Source: Buchnera aphidicola (Diuraphis noxia) (GTDB lineage: Bacteria; Pseudomonadota; Gammaproteobacteria; Enterobacterales; Enterobacteriaceae). From it: 64,000 nucleotides of DNA. The stretch is taken from NCBI RefSeq assembly GCF_001700895.1, contig NZ_CP013259.1, positions 62,001 to 126,000 on the forward strand. Reading direction: 5' to 3'. The position numbers were made by a program, and so were the translations under genes. Positions within the stretch are counted from its first letter, which is position 1. Every line of letters starts with the position of its first letter. The notes beneath the pieces were generated by a model. That model was not told the origin of the DNA and searched no databases. It saw nothing but the letters and a program-made list of their open reading frames with translations. This document shows positions 54,928 to 60,702 of the stretch, piece after piece.

Positions 54928-55554
54928 ATGTTTACAGGTATTGTAAATGGAATTGCTAGTATTGTTTCTATAAAAAAGAAAAAAAAAATACATGTCATCA
55001 CTGTGCAACTTCCATCTGTTTTATCTAAAAATTTAAAAATAGGTGATTCAATAGCACATAATGGATGTTGTTTAACTGTTAAGTCTATTGACTATGATTA
55101 TATAACATGCGATGTCATACAGGAAACTCTAAAAAAGACTAATTTAGGGATTCTAAATATTGGAGATAAGATAAATATTGAAAGATCAGTGAAATATGGA
55201 GATGAAATTGGTGGTCACATAATATCTGGTCATGTGATGAATACAGTTAAAGTCACTAAAATATTAAAATTTGATAAAAATTATATTTTATGGTTAAAAT
55301 TACAAGATAAAAATTTAATGAAATATATTTTTTATAAAGGATTTATTTGTATTGATGGAATTAGTTTGACTGTTGGAAATGTCTCTGAAAATGAATTTTC
55401 TATTAATCTAATACCTCAAACTTTATTGAGTACTACAATAGGTAGTAAAAAAAAAGGTAGTTTAATGAACATCGAAGTAGATTTTTATACTCGAACGATT
55501 GTAGATACTACTGAATATTTAATTAATACACAATCAATCATATTCAAAAGATAA
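54928..55554 (+). CDS. ribE: riboflavin synthase
   Basis: Riboflavin synthase (called ribC or ribE in E. coli) dismutates two lumazines to riboflavin. The product has 208 residues (213 in E. coli). The tandem lumazine-binding barrels each have their signature: [12 protein letters not shown] at the start with [11 protein letters not shown], and GGHIISGHV with [10 protein letters not shown] in the second half. A GAGGAA ribosome-binding site precedes the ATG. With ribB it shows that the cell still makes flavins, which the rsx complex and AroC need. Confidence 0.96.
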
Positions 55555-55620: not shown

Positions 55621-56202
55621 ATGAAACATTATTTTTTATTTTTTATATCTAATATATTAATTGATAATTTTATTTTAGTAAAGTTTCTTGGTTTATGTCC
55701 ATTTTTAGGTTCTTCAAATAACTTAAAAACTGCTATTGGAATGAGTTTTGCAACTACCTTTGTTGTTTGTATGTCGTCAATTTTTTTATGGTTAGTAAAT
55801 TTTTTCATTTTATTACCATTGGATATAACTTATTTAAAAATTATAGCTTATATGTTAATTATTTCATGTAGTGTTCAATTTTTAGAAATTGTATTACGTA
55901 ATACTAGTCCTATATTATATAGGACACTTGGAATTTTTCTTCCTTTAATTACAACTAATTGCACAGTCTTAGCAATTCCATTATTTAACTTATATTCTAA
56001 TTATACATTTTTAGAGTCTATATTTTATAGTATTAGTGCATCTTTGGGATTTACTTTAGTCATGATTATTTTTTCTTGTATACGTGAACGTATAGTTTTA
56101 TCTGATATTCCTTTACCGTTTCAAGGTGCTCCTATTGTTTTAATTACTGTTAGTATGATGTCTATTATTTTTATGGGCTTTAAGGGTTTGGTAAAAATTT
56201 AA
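55621..56202 (+). CDS. rsxA: electron transport complex subunit RsxA
   Basis: RsxA is an integral membrane subunit of the Rnf-type complex (RsxABCDGE), which couples electron transfer between NADH and ferredoxin-like carriers to ion movement; in E. coli it also keeps SoxR reduced. The product has 193 residues, the E. coli length. It has about six membrane segments and begins with [22 protein letters not shown], which contains the Cys that ligates the intramembrane iron-sulfur centre; the second is in [13 protein letters not shown]. It overlaps rsxB by one base. Confidence 0.96.
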
Positions 56203-56696
56203 TGATGCTAACGATTTTTATTTTTGCTATGATATCTTTTTTATTTGGAATCATATTAGGTTTTACTTCTTATAAATGTCAATTAAAAAAAGATCCCGTT
56301 ATCGAATCTGTAAATGAATTATTACCTCAAAGTCAATGTGCGCAATGCGGATATCCTGGATGTTATCCCTATGCAACTGCAATAGTGAAAAATTCTGAAA
56401 AAATTAACAAATGTCTTCCTGGAGGAAGTAATGTTATATTAGAAATTTCTAATTTATTAAATATAGAAAAACCTATTAATAATGTTGTTATTAAAGATGT
56501 AAAAATATTTCATACAGTTGCATGGATTGATGAAGAAAATTGTGTAGGATGTTCAAAATGTGTTCTTTTTTGCCCAGTAGATGCAATTATTGGTGCACCA
56601 AATTTTATACATACAGTTTTACAAAATTTTTGTACAGGTTGTAATATTTGTTTATTACATTGTCCGACTAATTGTATCAAGATAAAAACAAGATAA
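56202..56696 (+). CDS. rsxB: electron transport complex subunit RsxB
   Basis: RsxB is the iron-sulfur subunit carrying several [4Fe-4S] clusters. The product has 164 residues (192 in E. coli), truncated at the C-terminus. An N-terminal membrane anchor (residues 1-22) is followed by a 4-Cys domain around [13 protein letters not shown], then two ferredoxin motifs [12 protein letters not shown] and [12 protein letters not shown]. All cluster cysteines are retained. The stop lies two bases before the upstream start of rsxC. Confidence 0.96.
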
Positions 56697-56698
56697 TT

Positions 56699-58323
56699 AT
56701 GAATGTTATAAAATTATTATGTAACAAAAATATTTTAAAAAAAATTTTTTCAATAGCATTATGGAAAAAAACAATTTTTAGTTTTTTTAATATAAAAAAA
56801 AATATAATTTTCAAGGTGGTGTAAAATATTCATATAAAAAAAATAAACTAAATGATCATTTTTTACAAAAGTCACTTCTTCCTAAAATATTTTTTATTAT
56901 GATTAAAGGTAATTTTAGTGATAAACAAATACGTGTAAAAGTAAATCAAAAAATATTGCGTGGACAACCCTTGATTTTTGGTAATGATAATATTGTTCCT
57001 GTTCATTCACCAACATCAGGTTGGATAAAAGATATTTCTTTTAGTTCTGATTTTACTGAAAATAAGAAGAAAATTTTAAAAATTGTAGTTGTACCAGATT
57101 ATTTAGATCAATGGATCCGATTAAAACCTATTCAAAACTATAAACAATATACTTCTGAAAAATTAATTAAAAAAATTTATCAATCAGGTGTTGTGGGTCT
57201 TGGTGGTGCTGAATTTTCATCTGCAAAAAAATTAATGTTAGCTATGAATAAAGCACATACTTTGATTGTTAATGCTGTAGAAAGTGAACCATATATAACA
57301 GCAGATTATTGTCTAATAAATAATCATTTTAGTGACATCCTTATAGGATGTAAGATTATTTGTTGGATAAATTCAATTAAAATTGTTTTAATTGCAATTC
57401 AAGAAGATAAAATTGAATCTATTTTAAAAATTTCTCATTTAATTAAAAATGATTCATTATTTAAAATTTGTATCATCAAAAAAAAATATCCTGGAGGCAG
57501 TAGTAAAATTTTAGTAAAAGCCTTAACAGGTCAAGAAATACCTTATAATCAACATTCTATAGATATAGGATATCTTGTGTTCAATGTTGCGACAATATAT
57601 GCTATCAAACAATCAGTTATTGATGGTAAACCTTTAACTGAACGAATTATTACTATTTTAAGTGATCGAGATTTTTTATCAGGAAATTTTTGGACTAGAA
57701 TAGGCACTCCAATAAAACATTTTTTAAGTAATCAAGTAGATGAAAAAAATTTGGATTTAAGTGTATATTTAGGAGGTCCATTTATGGGAAAAAAAATAAA
57801 TAACTTAAATTATTCAATACTAAAAACAAATAATTTTATTTTTTTTCGATTTAATACAATACAATATAAAAATACTATTAATTATCACTGTATTCGATGT
57901 GATTACTGTTCCAATGTATGTCCAGTAAATCTACTGCCCCAACAAATTTATTTATATGCTAAAAATAACATTCATGAAAAAACGAGAAAATATAATGTTT
58001 TAGATTGTATTGAGTGCAAAGCATGTGAAAAAGTTTGTCCGAGTTATATTCCGTTAGTGAAATTTTTTACAGAAGAAAAAAATATTCTCAAAAATATAAA
58101 CATAGAAAAAAACTTTAAAAAGTCATCTTTTCTTCGTTTTAAAAAACGAGAAGAACGATTATTAGCTCAAAAAAAATTCATTAACAATAAAGATAAATAT
58201 CTTCTCAATGAGAATAAAACAAAATCTATGCATGTCAAACATCAATATATAAATATTGCTGAAAAAAATCAACGAAAAGAAATAGTTGCTGCAGCGATAG
58301 CACGTATAAAACAAAAACAATAA
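56699..58323 (+). CDS. rsxC: electron transport complex subunit RsxC, split by a one-base frameshift at a poly-A run
   Basis: RsxC binds NADH and FMN and holds two [4Fe-4S] clusters. The ATG at 56699 opens a frame (MNVIKLLCNKNIL...) that ends at 56824. The rest of RsxC, beginning YNFQGGVKYSYKKNK, which matches the E. coli FNGGIHPPE region, continues in the -1 frame to 58323. The switch falls on nine A residues at 56794-56802, phased as an A AAA AAA slippery site. One extra A in the mRNA or a -1 ribosomal slip gives about 541 residues. Later motifs are intact: VVGLGGAEFSSAKK, AVESEPYITAD, CIRCDYCSNVCP and CIECKACEKVCP. If translation begins only at ATG 56899, the N-terminal barrel-sandwich segment is lost. 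The E. coli protein (740 residues) has an extra Ala-rich tail. Confidence 0.9.
56794..56802 (+). other. A9 slippery tract at the rsxC frame junction
   Basis: Nine consecutive A residues stand exactly where the two rsxC frames meet. In the upstream frame the codons read ATA AAA AAA AAT, so the heptamer A AAA AAA is in the phase needed for -1 slippage. Poly-A tracts of this length are known in Buchnera to allow RNA polymerase slippage. Confidence 0.75.
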
Positions 58324-58356: not shown

Positions 58357-59403
58357 ATGATGTTTCCTAAAATATATTATGTTTCTAGTGTTAGAAAAAT
58401 AATGTTTATAGTAATTGTAGCTTGTATTCCTGGCATAATTGCTAAATGTTATTTTTTTGGTAGTGCAAGTTTAATACAAATTTTTTTTTCTGTAATCGTT
58501 GCTTTATTATTAGAAACGATAGTATTAAAAATACGTCTAAAAACTATTAGAACTCATTTACAAGATAATTCTGCTATTTTGACTGGAGTTTTATTTGGAT
58601 TGAGTATTCCTATTGTTCCTTGGTGGATGATAATTATTGGAATGTTTTTTGCTATTGTTATTGGAAAACATTTGTATGGTGGAATTGGCCAAAATATATT
58701 TAATCCAGCTATGTTAGGTTATGCGGTTTTATTAATATCTTTTCCAATTGAGATGAATAATTGGAACGAACGAAATTACGCTTTGTTTTCTTTAAATGAG
58801 ATTCAACAGTCTTTAAATCTCATTTTTTTGAAATATTCTATTTTTAATATCGAAAATACTAATTTTTATTTAGTTCCTGATTTTTTTACTGAGGAAACAC
58901 CTTTAAATAATTTTAAAATACAAAATCATTTAAAACATTTTTATCAAGTAGAAAATAATACACATCTAAATATTAATATTCAAAATAGCTGGCAATATAT
59001 AAATATCAGTTTTTGTTTAGGAGGGATGTTTTTACTGTTCAAAAAAGTAATTTGTTGGCGTATTCCAATAAGTTTTTTAAGTGCTTTAGGAAGTATATCA
59101 ATTATTTCTTTTTTTTATTCGAAAGAATTGTTTTTATCTCCTTTAATACATTTTTTTTCTGGAGGAACAATGATATGTGCTTTTTTTATTGCTACAGATC
59201 CAGTTACTACTTCTTGTACTAATTTAGGAAAGATAGTTTTTGGGATAATAATTGGTGTTCTGACCTGGGTTATTCGTAATTATAGCGATTATCCAGATGC
59301 AATAGCATTTTCAGTTTTATTCGCCAATATGCTAGTTCCACTAATTGATCATTGTACTCAAACATCTGGATATGGCCATAAAAATTCATCAAAATGTACA
59401 TAA
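58357..59403 (+). CDS. rsxD: electron transport complex subunit RsxD
   Basis: RsxD is a membrane subunit with covalently bound FMN. The product has 348 residues (352 in E. coli). It has about nine membrane segments; conserved stretches are [45 protein letters not shown] and the late [21 protein letters not shown]. The ETPL segment near residues 180-183 is the likely flavinylation region (Thr187 in E. coli). The start is one of two adjacent ATG codons. It overlaps rsxG by ten bases. Confidence 0.95.
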
Positions 59404-60023
59404 AAATATTAAAAAACGCTTTTTTAATTAGTTTTTTTTCTATTTTTTCTATTATTAGTATAATTTTAATAAATAAAATAACTGAAACTAAAATAGTTGA
59501 TCAAAATCAAAAAAAAGAAGATCTTTTATTAGAAAAGCTTTTATCTCCGCAAGTGTTAAATAAATTTGAAAGAAAATTATACAAAGTAAAAAATAACTTT
59601 TTGGGAGATGATAAAACTCATAATTTATGGTTATTATTAGATAAAAAAAAGGAAGCACAAGGAGCTATTGTTGAAGCGAATGCTCCTGATGGTTATTCAG
59701 GTTCAATTCATATGTTAGTAGCGGCATATTTTGACGGTAAAATTATTGGAGTACGGATATTGTCTCATAAGGAAACTCCAGGAATCGGAGATAAAATTGA
59801 ATTATCAATTTCTAATTGGATTACTAAGTTTTCTAATATTTATGTATCTTCTGAAGAAGATACTAGTTGTTTATTAAAAAAATATGGAGGAAAAATTGAA
59901 CAATTTACAGGAGCTACAATCACTCCACAGGCAGTAAGTAATGCGGTGAAAAGAGCAGTTCTTTTTATTAAAAATATATCATCTATTTTAGATCTTGCGA
60001 ATGAACATATTTATGACATGTAA
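59394..60023 (+). CDS. rsxG: electron transport complex subunit RsxG
   Basis: RsxG is a periplasmic FMN-carrying subunit with a single N-terminal membrane anchor (residues 8-27). The product has 209 residues (206 in E. coli). The covalent flavin attaches to the Thr of the TGAT motif, seen here in [17 protein letters not shown] near residue 172. The preceding [12 protein letters not shown] and [11 protein letters not shown] segments are typical FMN-binding-domain features. Both ends overlap their neighbours. Confidence 0.95.
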
Positions 60024-60702
60024 AAATTTTTTAAAAAATAGATTATGGGAAAATAACGCATCTATTGTGCAATTATTAGGATTATGTCCAGTTTTAGCAA
60101 TGACGACAAATTGTGTTAATGCGATAGGATTAGGAATAACAACTACTTTAGTCTTAATGATAACTAATACTTTAGTTTCTTGTTTTAAGAAATTTATACC
60201 TAAAAATTTAAGAATTCCTATTTATATGATATTAATTTCGTCTATTGTTACTGCTATAGAAATGTTAATTCATGCATATCAATTTAGTTTATATCAGTCA
60301 TTAGGAGTTTTTATTCCATTAATAGTTACTAATTGTATTGTCTTAGGAAGAGCTGATATCATTGCATATAAAAGTTCTATATTGGTGTCTTTTTTTGATG
60401 GTTTTTTAATAGGTTTAGGTTCTACAATATCTATGCTTATAATTGGTATAATACGTGAAATATTAGGTAATGGAACATTATTTTTTGGTATAAATAAAAT
60501 TATTTTAAATCTAGATGATTCTTTTTTTATTAAAATATTTGATAAACATGTTTCTGTAATTTTAGCTGCTTTACCCCCGGGTGGTTTTTTTATATTAGGT
60601 TCTATAATTGCTATTAAGAACAGCATAGATTTATATAATAAAAAAAAATTAATGTCTAGTCATTTTAGGTGTGTCTGTACAAGAAAAAATAAAAATATTT
60701 AA
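60013..60702 (+). CDS. rsxE: electron transport complex subunit RsxE
   Basis: RsxE is a membrane subunit paralogous to RsxA. From the ATG at 60013 the product has 229 residues (231 in E. coli), aligning with the E. coli start; an ATG at 60001 in the same frame is the alternative. [24 protein letters not shown] and [20 protein letters not shown] carry the two conserved Cys segments, and [10 protein letters not shown] and [11 protein letters not shown] follow. It ends two bases before the nth start codon. Confidence 0.94.

Follow-up and report, generated by a model that had tools for sequence, protein, structure and literature searches.

Poly(A) frameshifts in genes of Buchnera and Blochmannia are reportedly rescued by transcriptional slippage, as Tamas et al. 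described in 2008, and ancient homopolymer frameshifts kept by selection are said to have been found in Blochmannia by Wernegreen, Kauppinen and Degnan in 2010. The break in Buchnera rsxC described here resembles the cases of Tamas et al. in being a single-register break at a poly(A) run, in an AT-rich insect symbiont gene which is otherwise intact and for which a mixed mRNA is expected. There, however, transcript heterogeneity was measured. The rsxC break is read from DNA and is common to 28 of 30 genomes. With the cases of Wernegreen et al. it shares the conservation of a homopolymer frameshift between species with no decay of the gene; it differs in concerning Buchnera rsxC, in a register that changes between clades and in having two in-frame members.

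Homopolymer frameshifts that are conserved between symbiont species without decay are on record (PMC3017870), and for insect symbionts such conserved frameshifts, with slippage as the assumed means of reading through them, form an established kind (PMC3017870, PMC4389277). We file the rsxC break under this kind, as a symbiont homopolymer frameshift notable for its probable age, its breadth and its register change. Closest in organism and type of lesion are murF, murE and mraY of Buchnera, which also carry homopolymer frameshifts, yet the murF breaks are described as four independent events (PMC3164680), while the rsxC break is shared. The dnaX gene of Thermus thermophilus has in common with rsxC an A9 run, on which RNA polymerase generates heterogeneous mRNA (PMC1088944). 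Slippage in dnaX adds a product, the shorter form being half of the output; in rsxC only the shifted product is RsxC, and nothing indicated a use for the shorter one. According to the same source, a run of nine with a length conserved in all homologs is very likely to mark purposeful slippage, and measured against this yardstick the register of rsxC is constant in 17 lineages and variable in a clade of 13. The term 'rsx' is absent from the main text of PMC3164680, and a literature search that covered papers without their supplements found none on the Buchnera rsxC break, although rsxC may sit among the homopolymer frameshifts that have been counted.

rsxC is split at a poly(A) run within the rsx operon

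The analysed stretch, referred to as the window, comprises 64 kb of a 636,266-base Buchnera genome. Matches to NCBIfam profiles place rsxA, rsxB, rsxC, rsxD, rsxG and rsxE in this order within it (Table 1). An earlier reading of the window, made from the sequence only, had described an rsxC gene that starts two bases past the rsxB stop, soon ends in its own frame and continues in the -1 frame from an A9 junction at which an A_AAA_AAA heptamer lies in phase. A recheck confirmed each of these elements.

Table 1. Positions of the rsx genes and of the parts of the split rsxC in the window
Feature	Position	Strand	Description
rsxA	55621..56202	+	Intact; NCBIfam NF003481.0, 282 bits
rsxB	56202..56696	+	Intact; NCBIfam NF003475.0, 208.5 bits (cut-off 203); stop 56694-56696
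rsxC 0-frame start segment	56699..56824	+	41 codons from the ATG, then TAA 56822-56824; open in 30/30 loci
A9 tract (junction)	56794..56802	+	ATA AAA AAA AAT in the 0-frame; A run of at least nine in 29/30 genomes
RsxC frame (-1)	56791..58323	+	510 codons and stop; 51-72% identity to relatives' loci
rsxD	58357..59403	+	Intact; NCBIfam TIGR01946.1, 411 bits
rsxG	59394..60023	+	Intact; NCBIfam NF002519.0, 192.5 bits
rsxE	59995..60702	+	Intact; NCBIfam NF009070.0, 277.9 bits

The open reading frame from ATG 56899, with which the public protein listed for the contig of the window begins (P0003, 474 aa), matches the RsxC profile NF003454.1 with 413.1 bits from profile position 46. When the whole -1 frame is taken, the score rises to 431.5 bits (cut-off 345) and the match begins at position 3, so the residues directly 3′ of the A run are genuine RsxC. 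The -1 frame also matches TIGR01945.1 (364.4 bits, cut-off 245.95). Above both cut-offs and located inside rsxABCDGE, the rsxC product is the RnfC/RsxC subunit of the Rsx/Rnf complex.

The break is common to most rsxC-bearing Buchnera genomes

Comparison of the tract in related strains had been proposed as a check of the split. rsxC was searched in 36 Buchnera genomes, all of which gave some match, and 30 of them keep the gene; all 30 loci were examined. The other six match weakly: G014, G017, G020, G026 and G035 only over a ferredoxin-like stretch, which is found in the rsxC-bearing genomes as well, and G019 with a short rsxC remnant carrying stops besides its ferredoxin-like match. In each of the 30 loci the ATG that follows rsxB opens a frame without stops as far as the junction, whereas the other two frames are stopped, a pattern more regular than chance would give. 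This open upstream frame differs from the RsxC frame in 28 loci and agrees with it in two. All 28 shifted loci have an uninterrupted run of at least nine A at the break. Of the in-frame loci, L026 keeps A9, and L029 is the sole locus with an interrupted run. Downstream, 26 of the 28 shifted loci are open to normal length (484–521 codons); L031 has a second break, and L032 is interrupted by unread bases. The second break of L031, which is the rsxC of genome G001, lies near an A10 run at about codon 353–360 (L031:2559-2574).

In four outgroup loci (L033, L034, L038 and L047) one frame crosses the site from upstream, and no A run of nine is present. Their ATG lies near the rsxB stop in L033 and L038 and further upstream in L034, and none is listed for L047; L038 has stops later in rsxC. 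A further locus, L035, does not align at the junction.

The break is of the indel type and lies within an A run of at least nine, in a gene otherwise open in one frame. The sequence-only description was correct, and the phenomenon is larger than a single genome. Homopolymers are prone to sequencing and assembly error, and a true A10 in the window had been named as a way in which the split could dissolve. But 28 genomes are broken at the same run, which makes a hidden A10 very unlikely, and the registers follow the tree clade by clade, so that error in the A run as the source of the break is extremely improbable.

rsxC is under selection and is retained with its operon

Purifying selection acts on the sequence downstream of the run. 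The pooled pN/pS in the RsxC frame was 0.48 for the A9 group (11 loci) and 0.45 for the A10 group (5 loci), these 16 of the 30 loci having been picked for equal upstream length. Over codons 4–40 after the run the values were 0.63 and 0.57, respectively. These results support the earlier view of a one-base frame break in a gene whose remainder is intact and under selection, and they extend it: an out-of-frame run is kept in several species with purifying selection on rsxC.

The partner genes show the same distribution. Both rsxA and rsxD are present in the same 30 genomes as rsxC; in the other six, rsxA is gone or decayed and rsxD is absent or, in G035, a remnant. The three genes are thus retained or lost together. 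Loss of the whole rnfABCDGE set has been described for a Uroleucon symbiont (PMC3164680). As a separate observation, rsxA is itself split beside a T10–T11 run at about residues 49–66 in two distant lineages (L017:470-560 and L090:17790-17900; genomes G005 and G004).

On this evidence it is decidedly unlikely that rsxC is a decaying pseudogene in which the break is harmless erosion. Homopolymer frameshifts have often cost Buchnera genes (PMC3164680), in six of the 36 genomes rsxC, rsxA and rsxD are missing or decayed, and the rsxC of G001 is broken twice. Erosion does not, however, agree with the intact length of nearly all shifted loci, with the low pN/pS or with the co-retention of rsxA and rsxD.

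Both sides of the junction resemble one ancestral RsxC start

Free-living RsxC proteins, represented by 68 of 122 proteins chosen by motif and a length over 550, have an N-terminus that resembles MLNLLNLFRKDKIWDFxGG. When the eight residues that precede the final three Lys in the 28 shifted loci were aligned without gaps on the GG, their mean score against free-living RsxC was 4.4; shuffled upstream residues scored -3.46 (sd 1.28), and none of 200 shuffles reached 4.4. As the upstream residues match this N-terminus and the downstream residues are RsxC, the two sides look like one ancestral start, and the codons ahead of the A run (within the start segment of Table 1) are likely to be the true rsxC N-terminus. 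Compared with free-living relatives, the upstream part is extended. Constraint on it is weak, with a pN/pS of 0.81 for the 11 A9-group loci and 0.67 for the five A10-group loci, and in the latter group one wrong frame scores 0.62, below the right one. The codon-position test, a weak one on this segment, gave 0.311, 0.240 and 0.352 for 11 loci, 0.181, 0.150 and 0.200 for five, and 0.089, 0.022 and 0.089 for three.

A different possibility is that RsxC is translated from a start codon within the run, at it or beyond it, the upstream open reading frame then being a separate small frame. The starts of public Buchnera RsxC records (P0003–P0049) fall at many different points, scattered at or after the run; the window has an in-frame ATG at 56899; and in the A10 clade eight loci (L018, L020–L025 and L028) have a common ATG, in frame at codon 46 past the run, where the records P0031, P0032, P0037 and P0039 begin with MLRVKI. 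Such a start is nevertheless not available across the genus. The earliest ATG, GTG or TTG after the run ranges from codon 10 to codon 179, and in 25 of the 28 shifted loci (all except L010, L021 and L023) the interval from the last stop to the run contains no such codon. Moreover, the residues right after the run are RsxC, codons 4–40 show constraint in the five loci measured among the eight that carry the codon-46 ATG (0.57, as given above), and the residues right before the run match the ancestral N-terminus. We therefore consider internal initiation an unlikely alternative to the joining of both segments into one protein. The joined protein is already present in two public records, P0007 and P0034, whose presumed genomes, those of L006 and L030, are out of frame in the DNA, indicating that at least one depositor read through the break.

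Registers of the shifted loci point to RNA polymerase slippage as the probable bridge

The shifted loci fall into two registers. In 18 of them (16 with A9, two with A11) the RsxC frame is at offset 2, for which the correction is one A more or a -1 slip; the remaining ten, all with A10, are at offset 1 and need one A fewer or two more.

The sequence-only reading had offered two routes across the junction, an extra A in the transcript or a -1 slip on the heptamer. Either of them fits the 18 loci at offset 2. Programmed -1 ribosomal frameshifting, which would join the frames in translation, can draw on a correctly phased heptamer, present in the window as well as in the shifted loci with A9, and a single -1 slip would be enough for each of these 18. 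At the ten A10 loci, in contrast, a -1 slip leads into a wrong frame and +1 or -2 is required. Because the correction differs between the two sets, the ribosomal route cannot serve all loci and was rejected as the sole mechanism; it is improbable as the general explanation. Folding of RNA near the site (four folds from three loci, no pseudoknots included) gave z values of 0.74, -1.31, 0.78 and -0.49, none beyond shuffled sequences, and by eye no Shine-Dalgarno-like element was seen directly before the run in the window.

Slippage of RNA polymerase is favoured since a single process that gives several lengths serves all registers. On the A9–A11 run of rsxC the polymerase would slip and generate a mixed pool of messages. 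Those with a corrected number of A would yield one full-length RsxC, and the uncorrected ones would end after some 25–61 codons. As slippage would supply several registers, the run could be kept while the exact register shifts by clade (A9 vs. A10). We infer slippage as the bridge, and likewise any statement on the amount of RsxC made.

Published data on slippage point in both directions. Single-base insertions in A/T runs of Buchnera RNA climb exponentially with run length (PMC5574713). For frameshifted symbiont genes, 12–50% of transcripts are given as corrected (PMC5009743, citing an earlier study), and bacterial runs of nine can receive up to six extra bases by slippage (PMC5009743). As counter-evidence, the genome-wide survey of indels in Buchnera RNA, with 157 insertions and 70 deletions in its Buchnera set, found no transcription error restoring a frame, as stated in the cited portion of its text (PMC5574713). 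Deletions and double insertions, which the A10 loci need, are rarer in Buchnera than single insertions (PMC5574713).

The frameshift probably predates the split of Aphidini and Macrosiphini

In an RsxC tree of 30 tips, built without the tract columns, the lineages other than L017 and L030 form two clades, of 15 and 13 members. Support is weak for the order of L017 and L030 and for the branches near L029, and the outgroups sit on long branches. Every one of the 17 lineages that do not belong to the 13-clade is at offset 2, with A9 in 16 and A11 in L015. The A11 of L015 reads as a T-to-A substitution beside an A9, not as an indel. Within the 13-clade, ten loci are at offset 1 (A10), one (L024) is at offset 2, and two (L026 and L029) have no shift; one run in this clade is A11. 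A minimum of four offset changes is needed on the 30-tip tree, and the simplest history would place a single frameshift on the branch leading to all 30 and a single register change on that leading to the 13-clade, and would add two returns to the frame.

Buchnera cells are polyploid, and the genome sequences compared are consensus only, so that genome copies within a cell might vary in A number and an in-frame minority might supply RsxC. Such a mosaic at the DNA level is very unlikely, given that the register is identical in 17 of 17 lineages outside the 13-clade.

The rsxC-bearing set presumably spans Macrosiphini and Aphidini. For the split of these tribes 65 My has been fixed, with a range of 50–70 (PMC3164680). 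Overall, we consider it probable that the rsxC frameshift is ancestral in the Buchnera of Aphidinae, predates the Aphidini-Macrosiphini split and is bridged by RNA polymerase slippage in a gene that remains in use.

The A run persists across the genus

Among the 30 genomes, 17 places in rsxC carry an A/T run of nine or longer in one genome or more. The junction run is present in 29 of 30 genomes, the next most frequent in 17 of 29 and the others in at most nine. The window as a whole contains 51 such runs, 47 in conserved open reading frames, and 45 could be aligned in five relatives. Only two of these 45 tracts, the rsxC junction and the run at 54979-54988, reach nine or more in all five, compared with 61 of 225 cells overall. 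The second tract is an A run of 9–12 in the five relatives and belongs to a riboflavin-synthase-like gene (named from its protein); no frame break occurs at it in the window or in the four relatives that were read, and it is another long-lived slippery run. Frames, conservation, co-retention of the operon and persistence of the run are direct observations at rsxC.

In a close pair of genomes, G011 and G032 (93.5% identity over 60 kb), 14 of 38 coding runs have substitutions, one of them also being gapped, three have a gap only, and 21 are unchanged or longer. The rsxC run, counted as a fifth non-coding run, is unchanged, and all four other non-coding runs have changed. The four register changes of rsxC over the tree are not clearly rarer than the four gaps in 38 coding tracts, a comparison resting on one close pair and few events. 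Separately, three coding A/T runs of G011 (C1, at about 71.2, 82.8 and 88.8 kb) differ by one base from G032, which would mean a frame break in one of the two genomes. Lys codons within the tract are AAA at 89 of 89 positions; this test is weak, as AAG is likewise missing from six of the 16 conserved Lys columns elsewhere (20 AAG of 442).

A stronger reading is that slippage at the rsxC run has been maintained: RsxC would have been held at a lower supply than its partner subunits from before Aphidini and Macrosiphini separated, selection would have purged most in-frame mutations, and the run would have lengthened to match an altered correction on the branch leading to the A10 clade. We put this forward tentatively and regard it as doubtful. 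The occurrence of two in-frame lineages within the shifted group speaks against dosage control, as does the lack of a frame-restoring transcription error in the Buchnera survey, as far as its cited portion goes (PMC5574713).

Implications

Automatic annotation assigns different rsxC starts in different genomes, and counts of rsxC loss and assignments of its start sites in Buchnera consequently need care. If slippage by RNA polymerase is the true bridge, rsxC would provide a natural example, and a very broad one, of dependence of a housekeeping gene on an expression error, extending over 28 of 30 genomes and about 65 My. The gene offers a comparative test, with species that need one A more, one fewer or none.
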